A stretch of DNA of 64,000 nucleotides, from IMG/VR virus record IMGVR_UViG_3300050120_000210, positions 85,125 to 149,124 of that record, one strand, 5' to 3'. Within the stretch, counting starts at the first letter, position 1, and each line of letters opens with the position of its first letter. Shown piece after piece: positions 19,408 through 48,841 of this stretch. A program made the position numbers and the translations under genes. This DNA is from a virus. A model generated the notes under the pieces. That model saw only the letters and a list, made by a program, of their open reading frames with translations, was not told where the DNA came from and ran no database searches.

Positions 19408-19839
19408 ATGAATATCAATCAACCTTACAAAATCACACAAATCGTTCTGAATGCAAGTGTCAATGAGAACATTCTTCCTTCTGAAGGAGAACAGTTCGAT
19501 CTCTACACAAACTATCAAGAAAATACTACCATCAACGTCAAACTGCCGCCCGGTGACTTCGTTGGTGAAGAAAAAGTCATCCATTGGGTTGACCAATATG
19601 GCCATGGACTGGGCGATCTAGAAAATCCGGCACCAACTAATACTTCGATCTATATTCGATCCGAGGGTTGGATGGATGACCAGAGAACTGGTATTGTCCA
19701 TCGAACATTTACTGCCATTCGCGCAGGAGGTTACGCATTTTTCAAATGGGCTGGCGACCGCTGGCTGATTACCGCCTACTCGTCTAATGTCGATGAAAAT
19801 ACGGGGAATCCATATTTCTCGGGTGTATCCTCGGTTTAA
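19408..19839 (+). CDS. Uncharacterised AT-rich late gene, 143 aa
   Basis: Not recognised. The protein looks beta-rich (LPPGDFVGEEKVIHWVDQYGHG, then RAGGYAFFKWAGDRWLITAY) with no signal or membrane segment, a profile that fits a small virion or decoration protein. Base composition is markedly more AT-rich than in neighbouring genes, which suggests separate acquisition. The ATG at 19408 follows a purine-rich GAGAAAG; an in-frame TTG at 19336 could extend it. A late motif upstream and a terminator directly downstream make it a single-gene unit. Confidence 0.6.
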   Translation: MNINQPYKITQIVLNASVNENILPSEGEQFDLYTNYQENTTINVKLPPGDFVGEEKVIHWVDQYGHGLGDLENPAPTNTSIYIRSEGWMDDQRTGIVHRTFTAIRAGGYAFFKWAGDRWLITAYSSNVDENTGNPYFSGVSSV

Positions 19840-19845
19840 GAATGG

Positions 19846-19881
19846 CGGCCCCTTCCTCACGGTTGGGGCCGTTTCCTTTTT
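19846..19881 (+). terminator. Terminator after the 143-aa gene
   Basis: Stem CGGCCCC/GGGGCCG (19846-19852 with 19865-19871) followed by TTTCCTTTTT. Confidence 0.8.
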
Positions 19882-19883
19882 GA

Positions 19884-19889
19884 CTAAAT
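19884..19889 (+). promoter_or_regulatory. TAAATA motif upstream of tRNA-Val
   Basis: GACTAAATATCG begins directly after the T-run of the preceding terminator and lies 27 bases before the tRNA, so the tRNA appears to have its own late-type promoter. Confidence 0.45.
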
Positions 19890-19916
19890 ATCGTCACCGA
19901 CCTACATTGGTTTTAT

Positions 19917-19991
19917 GGACGCTTAGCTCAGCGGCAGAGCGCCTCGTTGACATCGAGGAAGTCAGTAGTTCGATCCTACTAGTGTCCACCA
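19917..19991 (+). tRNA. tRNA-Val (anticodon GAC)
   Basis: A full cloverleaf can be drawn: acceptor GGACGCT/AGTGTCC with one G-T pair, D-arm GCTC/GAGC, anticodon stem CCTCG/CGAGG with loop TTGACAT, variable loop AAGTC, T-arm AGTAG TTCGATC CTACT. The discriminator is A and CCA is encoded. It reads GTC and GTT codons. GTC is frequent in the giant adhesin genes. Confidence 0.95.
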
Positions 19992-20078
19992 ACACCGAAG
20001 ATGGTCATGCGTCACAAACCGCTCCCGCCTCTTCCGCGCAATCCGTTCTGGCCGTTGAGCCCGATCAAATCGACACCG

Positions 20079-20327
20079 ATGACGATTCACATCCCGGTCG
20101 ATTGTCTCCACAGCGTCAACCAACACGGCGCCGCCCTTAAGACAGAGGTGCGGCAATGGCTCGTCGAGAACACCACCTCTTATGCCTGTCGTGTGATCGA
20201 GAACATCTGGGTCACCCCGGCCGAAAATGCCGCGTGGCGAAACCACCCACTCAATCGCCAGAACATGGCCTTCATCACTTTCGAAAACGAAAATGATCTC
20301 CTGCATTTCAAAATGCGCTGGTCATAA
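20079..20327 (+). CDS. Small protein with C-terminal F..ENDLLHFKMRW motif, 82 aa
   Basis: One of a set of small proteins in this window that end in a strand-helix motif of the form F-x(4)-D-[A/L]-x-x-F-K-[M/L]-x-W; here ITFENENDLLHFKMRWS. The body starts MTIHIPVDCLHSVNQHG and is alpha/beta-looking. The frame is open to an ATG at 20001, ten bases after tRNA-Val, but that extension is Pro-rich and unlike its relatives, so 20079 is preferred. No Shine-Dalgarno site supports either start. Function unknown. Confidence 0.5.
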   Translation: MTIHIPVDCLHSVNQHGAALKTEVRQWLVENTTSYACRVIENIWVTPAENAAWRNHPLNRQNMAFITFENENDLLHFKMRWS

Positions 20328-35636: not shown

Positions 35637-35824
35637 CAGAAGTCGCGCTCCCATTCCTCGTCGGACGCTTCATCGAGCATCTTCTTGGCGTCAGCACGCC
35701 ACTTGTCCCGTTGCTTGGATGACATGGCGCCCCACGACGGAGACAGACCCGGCGGCGCGGCGCGCACATGGCTCTCGTAGAGAGCGATGGCCACGAGTTC
35801 GAGATGAGCAACATCCTTTTTCAC
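35636..35824 (-). CDS. Small helical protein, 62 aa
   Basis: Not recognised. GTG start overlapping the LysRS stop (GTGA). MKKDVAHLELVAIALYESH is followed by LSPSWGAMSSKQRDKWRADA and an acidic end. The pattern W..M....R..W...A is common in small phage proteins of unknown function. Coupled to genes on both sides. Confidence 0.6.
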   Translation of the reverse strand: MKKDVAHLELVAIALYESHVRAAPPGLSPSWGAMSSKQRDKWRADAKKMLDEASDEEWERDF

Positions 35825-37356
35825 AGGACGCTCCGCAAGAGTTCGATGGATCGCTCACGACCATAGGCGGCGATAAACGAGCCGAAGCGCGGCCCTTGTT
35901 CGTCGCCGAAATAGACCTCGTAGATGGCCTTGAACCAGTCGCGCAGCGGCTCGAACATGAACGACTTGCCAATCTCGTAGACATGCCACTGGTAGCCTTC
36001 ACCATCCAGTTCATCACTGAGGTTTTCGAGGGTGTCAGCCAGTTCGGAGAACGCTCGTGCTTCATACTCGGTCGGGGGGCGGCGGGGCTTCCGCTCAACA
36101 TGCTCACGCACGTAGGCGATGACACCGGGAACAAGGCTCCCAATGAATGCGCGGTCGCCAACACTCAGCGACTTGTATTGGTCGAGGTAGTTCATCAGTG
36201 TTTCGGCATCCTGCGCGCCCGAAACGGTCGCGAGGTTGATGAGCAGGCTATAGCTCACGTCCGCGTTGTAGGGCGGGGGCGAGCCTTCATGAACGTGCCA
36301 CACGGGCGAGTCGAGGCGAGCCTTCCCTTCGAGCGCCGGGAAGGCGGTAAGAGCCTTGAGATATTCATCGGTCACACGAGGGATCACCGAAGGCGTAAAC
36401 GCCTTCGCCGAGCGCGGCGACATGAACATGAACTGTGCCAGTGGGCCGGACGCACTATAGCGGTTCCACGTTTCCGTGGTCATGCCGTTGCCCAGCGACT
36501 TCGAAAGCTTGCGGCCTTCGTCGTCAAGGAACAGTTCATAGAAATAGGTCAACGGCGCCTTGCGGCCGACCGCCTTGCAGATACGGGTACTGAGCACGGC
36601 GCTGTCGATCAAATCCTTGCCGTGCATCTCGTAATCGATGTTGAACGCCATCCAGCGCATCGCCCAGTCAACCTTCCATTGAAGCTTGACCTGACCACCA
36701 AAGATGCTGGTCTGATGAATCGAACCGTCTTCGTCGGTGAACGTGATTTCGTAATCGCCGAGAAGACACACGTTCGCATTGTCCAACACCTTGCCGGTGT
36801 TGGGGCTGAGCGGCATGAACGGCGAATAGGTTTCGGCACGATTGCCGCCTTGACCACCGAGCGACGGCAGCATGATCTTCATGACCGCGTCATAGTGATC
36901 GTAGATGAGCTTCAGAGCTTCATTGAATCCACCACCGGCATAAATCTCCGTGGACGACACGAACTCGTAGCCCACTTCCATGCGGTCCAAGAAATGTCGA
37001 AGAGCGATGTTGTTTCGGGCGGCGAAACTCGAAAACTCACCGAACGGATCACACACACGCGTCAACGGAAGACCGATGTCTTCGCTCATTGATGCGGGCA
37101 TACCGTCCGGTACGCGGCGGAAGCCGTCGTAATCATCCGAGAAAACGATCAGACGAGTTTCGACCTTACCTTCGGTCAGTTCCTCGAACGCGCAGCGGAC
37201 CATGTTCGTGCGAACGACTTCACCGAACGTGCCGATGTGCGGGGCGCCAGAAGGACCGAAGCCAGTCTGAAAAGTCACGAGGGGTTGCCCTTCCACACGC
37301 TGCAACAGCGCGCGGGCTTGTTCGAACGGCCATGACTTGGCTTCGAGGGCACTCAC
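35821..37356 (-). CDS. lysK: Class I lysyl-tRNA synthetase, 511 aa
   Basis: Charges tRNA-Lys. The class I signature is present as GFGPSGAPHIGT (32-43), the HIGH-equivalent, and RKLSKSLGN (282-290), the KMSKS loop. Length is near that of alphaproteobacterial and archaeal class I enzymes (about 510-530), with the helical C-terminal anticodon-binding part intact. GTG at 37356 is chosen over an upstream ATG because GGAG lies 8 bases before it and the gene upstream stops at 37370. Class I LysRS is the usual form in alphaproteobacteria, so it points to host origin. It sits in a long operon of small genes. Confidence 0.93.
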   Translation of the reverse strand: MSALEAKSWPFEQARALLQRVEGQPLVTFQTGFGPSGAPHIGTFGEVVRTNMVRCAFEELTEGKVETRLIVFSDDYDGFRRVPDGMPASMSEDIGLPLTRVCDPFGEFSSFAARNNIALRHFLDRMEVGYEFVSSTEIYAGGGFNEALKLIYDHYDAVMKIMLPSLGGQGGNRAETYSPFMPLSPNTGKVLDNANVCLLGDYEITFTDEDGSIHQTSIFGGQVKLQWKVDWAMRWMAFNIDYEMHGKDLIDSAVLSTRICKAVGRKAPLTYFYELFLDDEGRKLSKSLGNGMTTETWNRYSASGPLAQFMFMSPRSAKAFTPSVIPRVTDEYLKALTAFPALEGKARLDSPVWHVHEGSPPPYNADVSYSLLINLATVSGAQDAETLMNYLDQYKSLSVGDRAFIGSLVPGVIAYVREHVERKPRRPPTEYEARAFSELADTLENLSDELDGEGYQWHVYEIGKSFMFEPLRDWFKAIYEVYFGDEQGPRFGSFIAAYGRERSIELLRSVL

Positions 37357-37369
37357 GTCGAGACTCCTT

Positions 37370-37639
37370 TTAGGCGGCGGCCAATTCACGTTGCCGCGCC
37401 TTGCTCAATTGGTCAGGCGACGGGCGATTTCGCCAGTCGTATACCAAATCGATCTGCTTGAAAACCACCGGCGTGGCAGTCTCCGCACAGGGTTGGCCAT
37501 TGTCCAACATGATGTGGCCACGGCCACCGTTCGCCGGACCCGGCACGATGCCCCCGCCGAACAGACTGGTCATGAACGCCAGACGTAGTTCACCATTATG
37601 CCGGACTAAGGTCCACGGCTTGTAGAGATTGCTTCGCAC
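37370..37639 (-). CDS. Small uncharacterised protein, 89 aa
   Basis: Not recognised. GTG start with a perfect AAGGAGG six bases upstream. Begins MRSNLYKPWTLVRHNGELR, then Gly-rich GGGIVPGPANGGRG and a basic helical end (DQLSKARQRELAAA). The first of a late-promoted pair with LysRS, since TAAATA lies at 37675-37670. Function unknown. Confidence 0.6.
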   Translation of the reverse strand: MRSNLYKPWTLVRHNGELRLAFMTSLFGGGIVPGPANGGRGHIMLDNGQPCAETATPVVFKQIDLVYDWRNRPSPDQLSKARQRELAAA

Positions 37640-40520: not shown

Positions 40521-40750
40521 GGGCCATCACTTGTCAGGAATGAACCTTCAAAGTAGCCCGTGCACGGACCTATCTGCAATATTTTCGTAAACCAAAATAG
40601 GCCCACCGGGTGGGCACATGGCGTGACCGGTGGGCCGTAATGGCTTCGGACGGGCTGCCATCAACCGTTCAGGAGCCCGGCGCCGAACATCCTGACTCAG
40701 GGGTATGTCCTAAAAGGGCAGTGACCGTTCTGATCCTTACCCTAGACACG

Positions 40751-40781
40751 AAAAAGCCGCCCCGGATTTGCCGGAGCGGCT
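40751..40781 (-). terminator. Strong terminator of the minus-strand RNA unit
   Basis: On the minus strand AGCCGCTCCGG-CAAAT-CCGGGGCGGCT, an 11-bp stem with one G-T pair, followed directly by TTTTTCG. It closes the transcription unit that contains the structured RNA and tRNA-Cys. Confidence 0.92.
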
Positions 40782-41205
40782 GGGAGTCCCGCGCTAGTCG
40801 GGATATGAGAACTGCCGGAGCAGTTTGATGTTAAAGCCGTGAGACTACAGGCTTAATGACTGGCCTTCCGAGATTATAGCCCACTTGCGATGGACCTTCC
40901 CCGATCATCCACCCTCTGCTCTTGCGAGTCAAAAGGTAACCAGCCGATGCCGCCTTTTCCCTATCGAAGCCCGAAGGCATAGGCGAGTGGCTTATCTCGC
41001 GTCGTAGTGTGTCCTCGGCGGTTCCTTCTCCGTTGACCATCGCTGGCCATTCAGGGTTGCAGCCCCTACGAAAACCTTCCCACCAACGTCCGGTTGCCTT
41101 GCGAGCTTCCGACCGTCTCGGTTCCAAATCGCCACCCGAAGATGACGACCCAGCCGAGAATTAGGCATCTTGTTACACACTACCGGGGCAGAACTTTGCG
41201 TTTTT
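40782..41205 (-). ncRNA. Hairpin-rich region downstream of tRNA-Cys, no protein gene
   Basis: No supported reading frame. On the minus strand it has TTCG-loop hairpins (CATC-TTCG-GGTG near 41134-41145, GCC-TTCG-GGC near 40970-40978), AACTGC...GCAGTT and TCCCG...CGGGA near the terminator, and GGGCTATAATCTCGG. Being co-transcribed with tRNA-Cys and terminated at 40751, it is either the 3' part of a large structured RNA or a separate RNA. Confidence 0.4.
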
Positions 41206-41279
41206 CTAAGACAGTTGGAATTGAACCAACGACCTCATCCTATGCAGGGATGCGCTCTACCAGAGTGAGCTATATCGCA
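41206..41279 (-). tRNA. tRNA-Cys-like (anticodon GCA), imperfect acceptor
   Basis: D-arm GCTC/GAGC with TGGTA, anticodon stem CATCC/GGATG with loop CTGCATA (anticodon GCA), variable AGGTC, T-arm GTTGG TTCAATT CCAAC are all perfect. The acceptor pairs TGCGATA with TGTCTTA: five or six pairs with G-T wobbles and one C-T mismatch. The discriminator is G and CCA is not encoded, so the CCA-adding enzyme would be needed. The weak acceptor leaves open that it is a decoy or part of a larger RNA. Confidence 0.75.
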
Positions 41280-41982
41280 ATCCACCAAGACGTGCTGCCC
41301 CAGTTGCTTCACCAGCCTTTCAGCCGACAAAATACAACACGCCTCATCCCTTTCATCCGGCTAAGACTACTCAGGTGTCCTTTTGGACCTAGTGACGTTT
41401 TCACGCCCCAAGACCCTGAAGACTGCCACCCGCCCTAAGCTGCGAAGCCTCGGACCTGATGACTACCCGTTAACTCTCGACCATGGACGTGCTTTGCATG
41501 TCTCGGTGCAGGACGCAAACCCCGCTTGGACCGACCTGCTTTCCCCACCGGCGAACCGACAAGGGCATCGAGCCTAGTCCTATCCCCTCTCAGGGACCAA
41601 AACGCACATCGTCCGATCTATCTCCTATCCCGAAGGTAGAAGACCCTCTTTAGGAGGGTAGTTCGGGCCTCTTTGGATGGACTACAGTTGCCTGTAGGGA
41701 CGGTATGTGGACCTTCCGCCCTTATCCCACCTCGCGGCGGGTTATCCGATTATACTGGCGCCAAATCGCCAGTTCTCAACACCCGTCCTATCGGTCGAAC
41801 GAACTACCCCGCACATCGACCGAAGCCGACGTGCAAAGTGATCCAGTAGGATCGAAGAGACGTTCCGCACGCCGCCCGAAGGCGACTTAACCCGACCGAA
41901 GCCGAGAGGCACGGAGTGCCGAAACTTGTGTGCTAGGAGCGGGTTTTCCCGCTCTCAGCGAAATTTTTTGGTCTGTGACCGA
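41280..41982 (-). ncRNA. Candidate large structured RNA, about 700 nt
   Basis: No reading frame is supported. On the minus strand stable hairpins with special loops are dense: a 10-bp stem with TTCG loop (41811-41834), CGCC-TTCG-GGCG (41873-41884), CTACAG-GCAA-CTGTAG (41682-41697), ACCCTC/GAGGGT (41643-41659), CTGGCG/CGCCAG (41755-41772), GAGCGGG-AAAA-CCCGCTC (41937-41954), and GAAA-closed stems nearer the tRNA. C(TTCG)G and GNRA loops are stable only when this strand is the RNA. It starts at an early-type promoter and runs into tRNA-Cys. Size, phage location and tRNA neighbour recall GOLLD and ROOL RNAs; identity is not shown. Confidence 0.55.
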
Positions 41983-41988
41983 AACACC

Positions 41989-42017
41989 AACCTAACAACT
42001 CGCCATTTTCTGGTCAA
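41989..42017 (-). promoter_or_regulatory. Early-type promoter of the RNA unit, TTGACC-N17-TAGGTT
   Basis: TTGACC (42017-42012), 17-base spacer, TAGGTT (41994-41989) on the minus strand, preceded by AAAAAGTAG. There is no protein gene downstream before the terminator at 40751. Confidence 0.6.
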
Positions 42018-42445
42018 CTACTTTTTACGATCTCTCGTAATTATTTTCGTTCACCAGATGGTGGAAGCCGTTGGGAGAGCGCCGCTGCCCCAGCCGTGAT
42101 TTGGAAAGTAGCGACCCCTTTCGGAAGACGCAATATCCTTTTTCGCAATTTCGTGACGAAGCCTGTGGATAACTCGCAAACGAAACAACGAGGGGTCGTC
42201 AAGCCGTTTGGCCCGGCATTCTCGTTGAGCCAGCAGCCTCGTATCTTGATGACTGAGAGCAAACTCCCGCCTGTGGGAATGGCGTCCCCGGCACGTTCCC
42301 GAGGCCCTCCACTCAAAACCGCACAAGGCTCCAAAGCCCGCCGGTCCACAGCCCGTGTCATACCACGGCGCCACTCGTCCAGTTCTGATTAGCAGACAAC
42401 AAGTTACCAGTCAATCTGCGCGAAAACTCCAATTTTGAGTTTCGA
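42018..42445. other. Gene-free stretch upstream of the RNA promoter
   Basis: 428 bases with several overlapping open frames on both strands (such as 42096-42392 plus and 42041-42361 minus), none with a ribosome-binding site, a promoter or a recognisable protein. GC-rich arm-like words are present, but I see no clear long stem. Could be an additional RNA or a decayed gene. Confidence 0.4.
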
Positions 42446-42451: not shown

Positions 42452-42481
42452 CTCGAAGCCTAATTGGATCATCTCCCTTCA

Positions 42482-45400
42482 ATGACACTGCGTCTCACAA
42501 CTCTGAATCTATCAGGATCGCTCACAGTGGGTAGGGATACCAATCCCGCTATCATGTGGGTTGCTCCGATGAACAAGGTTCTGGGTGCATTCAACGAAGG
42601 CGACGAGATCGAAACCGTCTTCAAGGCGACCGGCAAGAACCTCACCGCGCCCATCACCTATGAGCTTCACGTTGGTTCGCTGCCGGACGGCATCAGCTTT
42701 GATGAGACCAGCGGTTTGATGAGCGGTATTTTCACCGATCAAGTTGGCCTGTTCGATATCATCATTCGCGCGCAGAGTGGCGGAACGTTCCTCGATCATC
42801 CGTTCCGGCTCATCACCGGGCCGCATCCGTCGCCTGTCTGGATCACGCCTTCAGAGATTCTTGATTTTGGAAACGTAAACGAAACGGCGAACACCGCAGT
42901 TGAAGCCGTCGATCCCTATGAGCTTCCGGTTCAATATTCTGTGGTCGGCGGGCAGCTTCCGAGCGGGGTGTTCTTGGACCCCAACACCGGCGCCATCACT
43001 GGCACCTACCCGAACCTCGACGATGACCGCGAATACGATTTCACGTTGGCCGCGTCGAACGGCGACACCGCAGTGTTCCGTGACTTCAGCATCTATGTCG
43101 CAGCCGTCCCGCCTGAGTTCGCTTCGATTTGGGTCACTCCGGCCGGTTCGATTGGCTCTGGTTACGAACTCTCGTTCTTTGAGAGCACCGTGCTGGCCAT
43201 CGACCCGCGAGACGATCACATCACTTACGTGCGTGTGGCTGGCAACATTCCGCCGGGTCTGCAACTGGACGCGAACACCGGCCTGATGTCTGGCACGCTC
43301 GACGCGCAGCCGGACGACACCGAGTTCAAGATGATCTTGGGGGCGCGAAACAGCGTCTACACCACGAAGCGTCTGTTCCTCATCACCGTCAAACACGACG
43401 TTGCCCCGAGCTTCGAGATTCCGGGCGGGGACACGGGTCATCCGTTCCCCATCGGTCAGTTCATCGAAGGTTTCTCGATGAGATTCACACCGAACGTCAC
43501 GTCGAATCCTGAACTCCCGATCAGCTACACGGCGGTCGGTCTGCCTGATAACGTTGGCATCGACGTGAACAACGGCATGGTTTCGTCCGATTCCTTGCCG
43601 CTGGTGCCAGAGCCGCGCAACAGCGACGAGACCGTTCAGTTCTCGATCACCGCATCCGATGGTTTGAAGTCAGCTTCGCATCAATTCGTTTTCGTGATCC
43701 TGCGCGACTTGCCGCCGGTCTGGCAGCCGGTCGGCAACAGCCTCGGCCAAGATTTCGGAGGCACGGTGTTTGCTTCTCCGTTGCCGCTCGCCGTTGATGT
43801 TTACGCCCGTCCCGTTGTCTACACGCTATCCGATCAAACTCCGCTTCCCGATGGTCTGACGTTCGACCCGGATCAAGGCGAAATCAGCGGCAACCTTCCG
43901 CCCACACCCGATGACGATATCGACATTCCGCTGACGATCACTGCGGTCAGCGGTGTCAATCCGGCGATCAAGGATTGGACGATTACGGCATGGCACAACA
44001 TCCCGGCTATCTGGGATACTGACGCTGGCTCGCTCGGCATCATCATCGAGAACACCAACTCATCGGTAAGCGTCGCCGCGCACGATTTCCACGGTGAGCA
44101 GGCCGTGACCTACGCGATGGCGAACGCGACAGTTCTGCCGCCGGGTCTCACGTTGATCGCGAACTCAGGCGCCATCGTCGGCACGACGCAGAGCATTTCC
44201 GATCCCAATCTGGAAACGACGGTCTTCACCATCGAAGCGTCGTTCAACGGTCTGCTGCCGACCACTCGCGATTTCTCGATCAGCGTGCAAAAGAACTATC
44301 CGCCCGTGTGGGACACCCCGGCCGGAAGCCTGCTCTCTGTCCTCGCCCAGCAAGATTTCGGCGTTTCCGTCGTCGGTCACGATCCGAACGGCTCGCCGTT
44401 GATCTATGCGATTATCGACACGAACATTCCTGATATTCCCGACATCGTCACGACGCCCACTGACGTGACGGGTCGATTCCCGCCGACAACCGTCGATCAA
44501 ACATTTTTCTACAAAGTTTCGATCAGCGATGGCGTGAACCTGCCTATCGAACGAGACTTCACGCTGACTTCGTTGGCCAACTTGCCGCCGGTTTGGGTGA
44601 CGAACGCGGGTACTATTCTCGACGCATTCGAACATACTGACGTGAGCATTCAACTCGATGCGTTCGACCCAGAGGGTGCGGATATCGAGTTCTACATCAC
44701 GCCCAACACCAACGATATCTACAAAGAAGGCAACACTGTCTACCTTACGATGTCAAACACCGGCCTCGTCACCGGCACCCTTCCGCACGTCGATTCAGAC
44801 ACGACCATTTCGTTCACCGCAATTGCGTGGGATCAAACCGGCGAGCGCGGTAACAATCGCTATCTGGCAACGAGCCAGAGTTTCGACATCGTCGTGCGGT
44901 TCAACACCCCGCCGACGTGGAATACGGCCGCCGATATTGAAGGTCTTGAACGCACTGCGTTCTCCTTGACGTTCAGCGCCAGCGGCGCGGGTAATCTTCC
45001 GCAAATCGTTTACACGCTGAAGAGTGGATCGTTCCCCACAGGTCTGACCATGGATGCCAACGGCGTGCTGAGTGGTATCCTTCCGGCCGTAAGCTCGGAC
45101 CAAGATTTCATCTTCACGATGACCGCCGACAACGGCATCAAGCAGTCCGACCGAACCTTCACATTCACGGTGGTTGAGAATGTGCCCCCGGTTTGGGACA
45201 CCCCCGCCGGAGAGTTCATCAGTCATCTTGGACAGATTCCGTTCAGCGCCCAAATCATCGGCCACGATGACAACTCGCCGCTTGGTAACCCGGTGACGTA
45301 TACCCTCACCGATGTGGGTAATGTGCCTGTCACCGTCTCCTTCACCGCCGCCAATCCGATCACCGCCAACTCGAACATCACCGGCGTGATGAGCGGGCAT

Positions 45401-48400
45401 TTGCCGCTCGTGGAGAACTCGGACGCGCTTTACACCTTCACCGCCGCACTGAACGATGGTCTTGCCCCGCCGGTCAGCCGCACGTTCACAATTCGCAATC
45501 TGGCCGACCGTGATCCCCTGTGGGGAACACCCGCTGGCTCGATTGGCGTCGGCACTGAAAACAAGCCCTTCACGTTCACGCTTGGTGCAACGGACCCCGA
45601 AGCAAACACGGTTGTGTATGCTCTCGCCAATGGCACCAATTTGCCGGATGGACTTACGCTTTCGAGCAGCGGCTTCATCAGCGGCACTATGCCGCCCGCA
45701 GCATCCGATACCGATTATCCGTTCTCGGTTTTCGCGAGTGATGGAACACACGAATCGTTCCGCGATTTCACCGTCACGGTGCAGCATGATTTCCCGCCTG
45801 TCTGGGTTACTCCCGCAGGTAGCTTGGGCACGATCCTTGGTGGTTTCAGTTCAAGTTTCCGCATCGAAGCGACCGATCAAAACCCGCACGACACGGTCAC
45901 TTACAGCGTGGTCAGTGGCTCATTGCCGCCCGGCCTTGCGCTACTAGACACCGGTTTCATCAACGGCGCCATGGACACTATCCCTGCCGATGAAGACTAT
46001 AACTTCACGGCACAAGCGACAGACGGCACGAACCCGATCACACGGGCGTTCGCGATCTCTGGTGTGCGAAACCAGCCTCCGGTGTTTGTGCCGGGTGGCA
46101 GCCGCCTTGCTCGTCAAAAAGAACAGACGAACTTCACCGCGTTCATCGACGTGTTCGATCCTGACGGTGGTGATATTGCCGAACGCAAAGTCACCGGCTT
46201 GCCTGATGGCCTGACCTTCAACACCAGCACATTCAACATCGAAGGTGTGCTGCCTGCGGTCACCGAAGACAAAACGTATTCGTTCGATTATCTGGCGAAT
46301 GACGGCATTGTCGCGAACACGCAGACTTACACCATCGACGTGCTGTTTAGCTCTCCACCGGTCTTCCAAGGGTCTTCTACGCTCAATCGAGCGGTTGAGG
46401 GTCAAATCTACGCTGGCGACCAGATCACGGCCCTCTCAAATGGGTCCACGGTATTCTATTCGGTGTCTGGTGGCGAAATGCCGGACGGCATCAACTTGGC
46501 GTCCAACGGACAGGTTACCGGCGTGGCGCCGGGTATAGACACCGACACCAACTTCATCTTTGACGTGACCGCATCGACTGGCATCAAGTCCAGCGTTCGC
46601 ACCTACACGCTATCGGTCATCAAAAACCAGCCGCCTGTGTGGGACAGCAATGCAACGATCTCGCCGTTCGCGCAAGAAGGCCAGCACATCTCCTACTCGT
46701 TGGTCGCTCACGACATCAACGGGCAGAACCTCACTTACACCTTCCAGAGCGGTGCGATCCCTTCCGGTTGGATTTACAACGCTACCAGCAATGGCGTGAC
46801 CATTTCGGGGACCGGTCAAGACCTGACCTCTCTGGCCAACGACGCGGTCTATACCTTCACGATTGGCGCGTCGAACGGCTTCATCCGTACTGATCGTCTG
46901 TTTACGATTGTCGTGCATTACAATTCGCCGCCGATTTGGGGTGGTAATTCCGTCGTCGCGAACGTGGTCGAACAGACTGCGGTGGTGACCAGCGTGCACG
47001 CCACCGATCCCGAAGGCAACGCGGTGACTTACGCGGCCAACACCGCGACCTTTGGTTTCCCGTCGTGGCTGACGCTCAATGCGAACAGCGGGCAACTGAG
47101 CGGCACCGTGCCGCCGGTGCTCTCCAATTCGTCTGTGCCGTTTACGATTGCAGCGTCGGACGGCAATCGTTCGGCCAATCGCGACTTCTCGATCAACATC
47201 ATCCACAACGTCTCGAAGGTCGATCCCTTCGCAAATGCCGTGTCGCTCATCATGCACATGGAAAACTTCAACGACTTCGCGACGCTTCCTCCGCGCACAT
47301 TCTCGGTGACTTCTCCGGCCGCGTTGTCTTCCGCGCAGTTCCTCTTCGGGAGCAAGAGCCTGTTCGCCAATGGCGGCGCCATCACTACCCCATCTACGAC
47401 GGACACGTTGCTGGCGAACTCTGAATGGACTGTGGAGTTCTGGGCTTTCCCGACTTCCACGGGAACACAGCGCGTGTTGAACAGCAACGGACCTACCAAT
47501 TTCTGGAACGTGAACATCGCTTCTGGAAATTGGGTGTTCAACGCAACGAATAGCGGCGGGACGATCATCGGTGGTGGGCTCACTCTTGGCGCCATCGTCT
47601 TGAATCAGTGGCAGCACGTCGCGATCACCCGAGGCACGGATGGTGTCATTCGTGGGTTCGTCAATGGTGTCGTCGCTGGGGCCACGATCTCTGGCGCCGT
47701 CAGCAGCAGCGGCGGTAGCGGCTTGTTCTCGATTGGCGGCGATAGCAATGACAGTGTGTTCTCGACCGTCTTCATGGACGAGGTTCGTATCACGCAGAAG
47801 CAACGCTACACCGCGACCTTCACGCCCGTCACAAACCCGTTCCCGAATCCGCCTCTGTGGTTGACCGCCAACGCAACACTGATCGCTAGCGGCCCGGAAA
47901 ACAGTGTCGTGACAGCCCCAACCCCGGTGGTTGCTTACGACAACGACAACACTGGCTCAATGTCGTCATATACGATCACTTCGACAACGCCATTCTCCTA
48001 TGGCGTTGCGGGGAACACCGGCGTCTTGAACGGTTTCTTCCCGACGCTAGTGACTGACGCGAACTTCCCGATTGTGACTGTGGCCCGTGATGGCAACGGC
48101 AACTGGACCGCACCGCGCACTTTCTTCGCCAAGTCCAATGCCGCCACCGCCGCCAACATGGTCATGTCGTGGCGCTTCAACAAAGACATGACTTCGAGCG
48201 ACTTCTCGCTATCGACTGGCAACGCGGTTGTTGGACAACCGGGCATCAGCGGAGGCACGGCGACTTATGCTCAGGCGCCCGCTCCGCATGGCACTGAAAC
48301 AGCCATGTGGACAGGGAACACCGGCACCGGGCTCTCGTGGGATACAGGTGTTGGTCATTTCAACTTCCTGTCCGGCTCGTTCACGCTTGAAATGTGGGTC

Positions 48401-48841
48401 TATATGGCTGGCGGTTATCCGCAAAATGTGGGCGGCGGAAACCGGGCGCTATTCATCATCACGCCGTCAGCCTTCAACAGCAATTTCCGACTGTTCCGAT
48501 ATGAGTCGTCGCCATCTCCGACCGGAAACATGGCTATGACCTTCATGGACATCAACCGACCGGCCGGGTGCCCAACGGGTCAGGATTTGGTGCCAAATGC
48601 ATGGCAGCACGTCGCGTTCACCAGAAACGCAACCACCAGCACGAACACGCTTTGGTTGAATGGTGTTGCCGGGCCGAGCACAACGACATCAAGTCCCGCA
48701 ATCGGGACATTCGATAACTGCAACCTGCTGATAAACCCGGCGGCGTCCACAGCTTATGTGAACGTCTTCTATCACTCGATCATTTTCTGGAACGTGCTGA
48801 AATACACGAGCACGTTCACCCCGGTCTGGCCGGGCTACTAA
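42482..48841 (+). CDS. Second giant Ig-like/LamG adhesin or fibre protein, 2,119 aa
   Basis: About 17 Ig-like (He_PIG-type) repeats with SLP.G..., NTG.I.GT.P and FTI.A.DG...R.F signatures fill residues about 20-1580, followed by LamG-like modules at about 47220-47830 and 48150-48838 (MDEVRITQKQRYTATF; ALFII...W.HVAFTRN). It has the same design as the 7252-18651 protein but is shorter and more diverged between repeats. No signal peptide. Likely a virion fibre or whisker that contacts the host surface. The start ATG at 42482 is uncertain because a TTG at 42464 is in frame and neither has a Shine-Dalgarno site. Its stop overlaps the convergent gene. Confidence 0.8.
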   Translation: MTLRLTTLNLSGSLTVGRDTNPAIMWVAPMNKVLGAFNEGDEIETVFKATGKNLTAPITYELHVGSLPDGISFDETSGLMSGIFTDQVGLFDIIIRAQSGGTFLDHPFRLITGPHPSPVWITPSEILDFGNVNETANTAVEAVDPYELPVQYSVVGGQLPSGVFLDPNTGAITGTYPNLDDDREYDFTLAASNGDTAVFRDFSIYVAAVPPEFASIWVTPAGSIGSGYELSFFESTVLAIDPRDDHITYVRVAGNIPPGLQLDANTGLMSGTLDAQPDDTEFKMILGARNSVYTTKRLFLITVKHDVAPSFEIPGGDTGHPFPIGQFIEGFSMRFTPNVTSNPELPISYTAVGLPDNVGIDVNNGMVSSDSLPLVPEPRNSDETVQFSITASDGLKSASHQFVFVILRDLPPVWQPVGNSLGQDFGGTVFASPLPLAVDVYARPVVYTLSDQTPLPDGLTFDPDQGEISGNLPPTPDDDIDIPLTITAVSGVNPAIKDWTITAWHNIPAIWDTDAGSLGIIIENTNSSVSVAAHDFHGEQAVTYAMANATVLPPGLTLIANSGAIVGTTQSISDPNLETTVFTIEASFNGLLPTTRDFSISVQKNYPPVWDTPAGSLLSVLAQQDFGVSVVGHDPNGSPLIYAIIDTNIPDIPDIVTTPTDVTGRFPPTTVDQTFFYKVSISDGVNLPIERDFTLTSLANLPPVWVTNAGTILDAFEHTDVSIQLDAFDPEGADIEFYITPNTNDIYKEGNTVYLTMSNTGLVTGTLPHVDSDTTISFTAIAWDQTGERGNNRYLATSQSFDIVVRFNTPPTWNTAADIEGLERTAFSLTFSASGAGNLPQIVYTLKSGSFPTGLTMDANGVLSGILPAVSSDQDFIFTMTADNGIKQSDRTFTFTVVENVPPVWDTPAGEFISHLGQIPFSAQIIGHDDNSPLGNPVTYTLTDVGNVPVTVSFTAANPITANSNITGVMSGHLPLVENSDALYTFTAALNDGLAPPVSRTFTIRNLADRDPLWGTPAGSIGVGTENKPFTFTLGATDPEANTVVYALANGTNLPDGLTLSSSGFISGTMPPAASDTDYPFSVFASDGTHESFRDFTVTVQHDFPPVWVTPAGSLGTILGGFSSSFRIEATDQNPHDTVTYSVVSGSLPPGLALLDTGFINGAMDTIPADEDYNFTAQATDGTNPITRAFAISGVRNQPPVFVPGGSRLARQKEQTNFTAFIDVFDPDGGDIAERKVTGLPDGLTFNTSTFNIEGVLPAVTEDKTYSFDYLANDGIVANTQTYTIDVLFSSPPVFQGSSTLNRAVEGQIYAGDQITALSNGSTVFYSVSGGEMPDGINLASNGQVTGVAPGIDTDTNFIFDVTASTGIKSSVRTYTLSVIKNQPPVWDSNATISPFAQEGQHISYSLVAHDINGQNLTYTFQSGAIPSGWIYNATSNGVTISGTGQDLTSLANDAVYTFTIGASNGFIRTDRLFTIVVHYNSPPIWGGNSVVANVVEQTAVVTSVHATDPEGNAVTYAANTATFGFPSWLTLNANSGQLSGTVPPVLSNSSVPFTIAASDGNRSANRDFSINIIHNVSKVDPFANAVSLIMHMENFNDFATLPPRTFSVTSPAALSSAQFLFGSKSLFANGGAITTPSTTDTLLANSEWTVEFWAFPTSTGTQRVLNSNGPTNFWNVNIASGNWVFNATNSGGTIIGGGLTLGAIVLNQWQHVAITRGTDGVIRGFVNGVVAGATISGAVSSSGGSGLFSIGGDSNDSVFSTVFMDEVRITQKQRYTATFTPVTNPFPNPPLWLTANATLIASGPENSVVTAPTPVVAYDNDNTGSMSSYTITSTTPFSYGVAGNTGVLNGFFPTLVTDANFPIVTVARDGNGNWTAPRTFFAKSNAATAANMVMSWRFNKDMTSSDFSLSTGNAVVGQPGISGGTATYAQAPAPHGTETAMWTGNTGTGLSWDTGVGHFNFLSGSFTLEMWVYMAGGYPQNVGGGNRALFIITPSAFNSNFRLFRYESSPSPTGNMAMTFMDINRPAGCPTGQDLVPNAWQHVAFTRNATTSTNTLWLNGVAGPSTTTSSPAIGTFDNCNLLINPAASTAYVNVFYHSIIFWNVLKYTSTFTPVWPGY

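Follow-up and report, generated by a model that had tools for sequence, protein, structure and literature searches.

A diverged phage GOLLD RNA with a predicted tRNA-Cys-like cloverleaf as its linker

Introduction

GOLLD is a large RNA family that assembles into hollow cages and is transcribed as one RNA, raised during lysis; the structure of the cage has been solved. Here we ask what kind of RNA is encoded on the minus strand around positions 40751–42017 of a 64,000-nucleotide stretch of viral DNA (positions 85,125 to 149,124 of IMG/VR record IMGVR_UViG_3300050120_000210; hereafter the window), and what a tRNA-Cys sequence is doing within it. An initial annotation, made from the letters alone, had suggested a large structured RNA that was either a diverged GOLLD or ROOL RNA or the first member of a new family. 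Judged by sequence comparison, the window carries a phage GOLLD whose linker is a tRNA-Cys-like cloverleaf, and the lineage to which it belongs keeps a tRNA-like element at that site, which provides a testable clue to the role of the cage.

In the cryo-EM structure of GOLLD env-38, 14 copies form a cage with the linker inside, and it has been suggested that tRNAs, which are sometimes found in GOLLD linkers, could be enclosed by the cage (Kretsch et al. 2025, PMC12286853). GOLLD membership as such, and tRNAs in GOLLD linkers (PMC12286853, PMC6582537), are thus already known. Apparently new here are a lineage that scores around the Rfam cut-off and in which tRNA-like linkers are near-universal, a contrast between embedded and free tRNAs, a set of anticodon-loop alleles and two permuted linkers; parts of this may be known already.

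Identity of the minus-strand RNA

The Rfam model for GOLLD (RF02032) matches the window over its full length (model positions 1–416) at 41345–40835 on the minus strand, with a score of 143.4 bits and an E value of 1.1e-39. The gathering cut-off for this family, which is a curated threshold and no biological feature, is 150 bits; a default Rfam scan therefore misses the GOLLD and reports tRNAs only. The match surfaces only under an E-value threshold, where tRNA is the sole other Rfam match in the region; ROOL, OLE, HEARO, raiA and the other Rfam families, several of which the initial annotation had listed for checking, gave no match up to E 10 on 40600–42300.

Short DNA patterns gave mostly chance contigs, and the GOLLD relatives were found with a gapped pattern of the 3′-end and with a profile. 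The closest relative, contig L048, is 84% identical to the window in the 3′ domain and scores 159.3 bits against the GOLLD model, and is thus over the Rfam cut-off, as are L002, L003 (193.5 bits), L004 and L014 (188.3 bits). A leave-one-out profile, built from the relatives without the window, matches 41776–40818 with an E value of 5e-127, spanning both domains. GOLLD matches of 142–194 bits were also obtained in Caulobacter, Erythrobacter and Mesorhizobium phages, where a tRNA again lies at the place of the linker. In an alignment of 23 sequences, 53 of the 61 predicted pairs of the 3′ domain show compensatory change, as do 27/38 pairs in a second alignment (A3) that takes in the 5′ domain together with the helix preceding the linker, many of them in helices adjoining the linker. 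Stems without covariation had been named at the outset as an observation that would speak against a structured RNA; the covariation is strong, and the idea stands.

The alternative that the RNA forms a new family unrelated to GOLLD could draw on the score below the gathering threshold and on a blastn search with the 5′ half of the unit, which returned no phage match (among the blastn matches of the whole unit, many are tRNA matches in unrelated phages). It is ruled out by the E value of 1e-39 over the full model, by the relatives that pass the cut-off and by profile homology through both domains, and we give it hardly any credence. The minus-strand unit is almost certainly a diverged GOLLD RNA, and neither a ROOL RNA nor a new family. 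With the known GOLLD RNAs (RF02032, env-38) it shares its setting in a phage genome (a virus record of 149,124 bp), a tRNA near or in the linker (tRNA-Asn 1.8 kb off, tRNA-Cys inside), the full structure of the 3′ domain, a pseudoknot around the linker and a separate 5′ domain, which is structured, less conserved and recognisable by homology as far as 41776. It is unlike other GOLLDs in falling just below the Rfam cut-off and in having a 5′ start without homology to the members compared. Since the cut-off misses members of this lineage, the lineage is easily overlooked.

Architecture of the unit

The whole GOLLD RNA gene is placed at 40751 to about 41990 on the minus strand on the basis of the Rfam match, the leave-one-out profile, minus-strand folding and an intrinsic terminator, which sets its 3′ end. 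Its most 5′ part is a hairpin-rich stretch with UUCG loops (41777–41990), which has the strongest minus-strand folding of the region and lies outside the match to the relatives, among which no homologue of 41777 to about 41990 was detected; the 5′ domain may start here in a way specific to the lineage. The GOLLD 5′ domain proper (41346–41776, minus) is defined by the profile of relatives and by the compensatory pairs in A3. It is followed by a conserved helix directly before the linker (41288–41344), formed by AGGCGTG (41344–41338) and CACGTCT (41294–41288), which corresponds to A3 columns 601–658 and to the Rfam model structure. A pseudoknot (41183–41303) formed by CTGGGGCAG (41303–41295) and CTGCCCCGG (41191–41183) brackets the linker; of its 9 pairs, 7 have changed on both sides, and 91% are paired across 26 sequences. 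The GOLLD 3′ domain (40835–41199, minus) runs from the conserved GCAAAG to GTAGTCTCA.

The 300-nt segments 41701–42000 and 41551–41850 are the second and third strongest in folding among all of the 64 kb, with residual z values of -3.2 on the minus strand versus 0.0 and +0.4, respectively, on the plus strand, which bears out the earlier observation of stable structure on the minus strand only. The proposal of a hairpin-rich tract upstream of the tRNA holds insofar as structured RNA is present there; the boundary given to it does not, as structure lies on both sides of the tRNA and homology extends over 41776–40818.

The terminator (40751–40781, minus) consists of an 11-bp stem with 9 G-C pairs followed by a T-run; L048 has an equivalent hairpin and TTTTT at this position, in support of the original assignment, and terminator-like sites occur in the region at chance frequency (2 found versus 1.9 expected). 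The promoter proposed at 42017–41989 fared less well: the letters TTGACC-N17-TAGGTT are present, but TAGGTT agrees with TATAAT at just 3/6 positions, a scan for consensus promoters made no report there, and 0.8 better sites are expected by chance, such that the site is no better than chance. The unit had also been described as lacking a protein frame. In its 98-aa ORF (41127–40831), substitutions relative to L048 are spread evenly over the codon positions (17/17/15), and a coding origin was rejected; codon-like conservation, another finding that was to count against a structured RNA, is absent in this comparison.

The tRNA-Cys-like linker

A tRNA-Cys(GCA) is predicted by ARAGORN at 41280–41205 on the minus strand, in agreement with the Rfam tRNA match (52 bits) at 41279–41206; the element, which we place at 41206–41279 with its anticodon at 41245–41243, was thus correctly recognised from the start, as was its position inside the RNA unit. 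It makes up nearly the whole GOLLD linker, which is the poorly conserved stretch of the model. The cloverleaf is present with its GCA anticodon and U33 (loop CTGCATA), but a sound acceptor, U73 and an encoded CCA, as expected of a functional tRNA-Cys, are lacking: the acceptor contains one mismatch (C3-U70) and two G-U pairs, position 73 is G, and AAA stands where CCA is expected. By contrast, both free tRNAs of the window encode CCA. Compared with L048, the window shows 84–89% identity in the GOLLD body and 63% in the tRNA element; the anticodon loop is unchanged, whereas the anticodon stem has changed with compensation.

These features bear on whether the linker is a working tRNA-Cys gene, released by RNase P and a 3′ nuclease and given its CCA by the host, with the GOLLD halves remaining joined by the pseudoknot and the cage or transcript acting as a mere carrier. 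Such a gene is favoured by the intact GCA loop in L048 alongside a changing stem, by covariation in the D, anticodon and T stems, and by the CCA encoded by four relatives (see below); the mismatch, G73 and absent CCA of the window element speak against it. So do the 13/15 distinct elements without CCA at loci where most free tRNAs encode it, the loss of U33 in several relatives, a stop anticodon, and Leu, Ser and Tyr anticodons on bodies with a short variable arm. Taking both sides together, we regard release of a working tRNA as rather unlikely.

tRNA-like linkers across the lineage

Among 129 loci carrying the GOLLD 3′-end pattern, a few of which are chance matches, 19 have an ARAGORN tRNA between -450 and -387, counted from the 3′ end, and none was placed elsewhere between about -950 and 0. 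When sequences were read by eye, 32 of the 33 complete linkers of the window's lineage (a tally in which a few loci are near-duplicates) contained a tRNA-like cloverleaf, 31 in natural order and 1 circularly permuted, and one was without; none of the 45 GOLLDs that Rfam confirmed beyond this lineage had a detectable tRNA-like linker. In a 3′-domain tree, built on a short alignment, the GOLLDs with a tRNA group on one side (support 0.8), and three further members fall with them: two that have no tRNA and one that is truncated by the end of its contig.

Pairing in the D, anticodon and T stems and in the pseudoknot around them reaches 93% across 26 aligned linkers; the covariation score is three times the shuffled value, and 0/500 shuffles scored as high. 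CCA is encoded by 2/15 distinct embedded elements versus 179/268 free tRNAs of the same loci (P 5e-5), and acceptor mismatches, mostly in pairs 1–4, are commoner in the embedded elements than in free tRNAs (P 1e-9); the distinct elements are few and the loci related. In some relatives a Leu, Ser or Tyr anticodon sits on a body that lacks the long variable arm, a stop anticodon occurs among the linker elements, and U33 is missing in several. The pattern has exceptions, as four lineage members have fair acceptor stems and an encoded CCA.

Could the linker merely tolerate insertions, with tRNAs from neighbouring phage arrays dropping in and decaying as functionless relics? In other GOLLDs the linker varies freely in both length and sequence, the acceptors of the elements are degraded, and the tRNA evolves faster than the GOLLD body, all of which would fit; relics would not be expected in nearly every member of the lineage, nor with three strongly covarying stems, and we consider this quite unlikely. 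A little less likely still, in our estimate, is a purely structural module (a folding aid, domain spacer or cage filler) in which the anticodon is irrelevant: the fold is kept while isotype changes freely, and a cloverleaf is retained even in permuted forms, but GOLLDs outside the lineage manage without the element and the env-38 cage forms despite a disordered linker (PMC12286853).

The permuted look-alikes were observed in the GOLLD linkers of L082 (2254–1720, minus) and L187 (13747–13244, minus), in the order T-arm, 3′ acceptor strand with CCA, hairpin, 5′ acceptor strand (7 pairs), D-arm and anticodon-like arm; the acceptor strands are CGCCCGC/GCGGGTG and CTCCCCC/GGGGGAG, respectively. In a limited literature search, we found no permuted tRNAs in phages or GOLLDs.

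Several further loci are recorded here as observations. In L014, a 607,744-bp viral contig (GOLLD at 1091–1616, plus, 188 bits), the linker element is missed by ARAGORN, and the 5′ strand of its acceptor (TTTCGC) is complementary to the downstream GOLLD base GCGAAA; the window counterparts are TTGCG and CGCAA. Considered as a general feature, this pairing of the acceptor 5′ strand with the GOLLD base was rejected, as it holds in part of the lineage only. A lineage GOLLD with an embedded tRNA-like element that lacks U33 lies on a 391-kb contig of the bacterium Pseudaminobacter soli (L199, 1131–2029, minus), presumably within a prophage, and the viral contig of L128 (G034) has two GOLLD copies on the minus strand (36280–36673 and 19736–20149), ~16 kb apart.

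Anticodon-loop alleles in Caulobacter phages

The Caulobacter phages phiCbK, CcrKarma, CcrMagneto, BL57 and others belong to the same lineage as the window, and carry their element at the same linker site, likewise without CCA and with a broken acceptor tip, but with a Gly(TCC) or Lys(CTT) anticodon in place of Cys(GCA). Public phage records label linkers of the lineage, those of the Caulobacter phages included, as plain tRNA genes.

Around the linker, the Caulobacter GOLLDs hardly differ. Nine records match phiCbK exactly in this region, with the loop CGTCCTA and annotated as tRNA-Gly; eight records of five phages are annotated as tRNA-Lys, with the loop CTCTTAA in all five phages; the BL57 loop is CATCCTA. 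In the interval -118 to +124 relative to the tRNA start, phiCbK and CcrMagneto differ at five adjacent loop bases and nowhere else. As adjacent base changes are not independent, the Gly/Lys change may be one event, and the Caulobacter loop changes as a whole may represent a single event plus a separate change in BL57.

Possible function of the linker

Unlike the identity of the RNA as a GOLLD, the function of its tRNA-like linker is something we infer. We tentatively propose, with somewhat less than even confidence, that the linker is a tethered tRNA mimic which displays an anticodon loop as bait or decoy for a tRNA-binding factor. With its acceptor tip degraded and its CCA missing, the element should be hard for RNase P to release and hard to aminoacylate, and would thus stay in the GOLLD chain. 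By analogy with env-38, each cage of the window RNA would hold up to 14 such tethered elements. Each would offer a tRNA elbow and an anticodon loop, and might bind, during infection, some host factor with affinity for tRNA bodies or anticodon loops, be it the ribosome, a tRNA-modifying enzyme or an anticodon nuclease; on this view, close phages that differ in the loop would also differ in their targets.

This tethered-mimic proposal draws on the restriction of tRNAs to the linker and to the lineage (32/33 versus 0/45), on covariation of the D, anticodon and T stems as a sign of selection on the fold, on the departures from normal tRNAs when compared with free ones (CCA rare, acceptor mismatches), and on the Caulobacter loop alleles on an otherwise invariant element. 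It is also consistent with a mycobacterial tRNA cluster, where a tRNA-like sequence is likewise predicted inside a GOLLD gene and this pseudo-tRNA, as its authors term it, has no detectable expression on its own (PMC6582537); that GOLLD belongs to an actinobacterial chromosomal cluster and, as far as tested, lies outside the window's lineage. Against it stand the four lineage members with CCA and fair acceptors; moreover, host enzymes could add CCA, and the Caulobacter loop change may be one event. The linker of the window differs from that of env-38 in being almost entirely tRNA-like, and the cage is known for env-38 only.

Other systems offer partial parallels. YrlA and other bacterial Y RNAs (Chen et al. 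2014, cited in PMC9569102) are noncoding and, as here, have a tRNA-like domain whose role may lie outside translation; they are small, unrelated in sequence and form no cage, such that the resemblance is one of principle only. Phage tRNAs with altered anticodon loops have been proposed to evade host anticodon nucleases (eLife 2023, PMC10264068). Fold-selected linkers, degraded acceptors and exchangeable loops would together suggest the cage interior as a display site for tRNA-like elements, a question that can be tested in ordinary laboratory systems, for example Caulobacter infected with phiCbK or CcrKarma. A wider version of the tethered-mimic proposal, which we offer as speculation and think improbable enough to hold loosely, is that the lineage's linker has become a standing tRNA mimic, permuted forms included, whose cage of tethered, exchangeable anticodon loops would act as bait or decoys in a conflict over host tRNAs.

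Neighbouring genes

A class I lysyl-tRNA synthetase is encoded in the window at 35821–37389 on the minus strand (Pfam PF01921, E 8.7e-100), for which tblastn found no relative in 50,697 phage records. In several such phages a tmRNA gene lies near the GOLLD (L002, 2092–2531, minus; L006, 3548–3956, plus; L187, 5882–5489, minus), and in phiCbK and BL57 this tmRNA is of the permuted type. On the plus strand of the window, 42464–48841 encodes a protein of 2125 aa in which putative Ig domains (He_PIG) are numerous and two lectin domains are laminin-G-like; it may be a tail fibre or adhesin.
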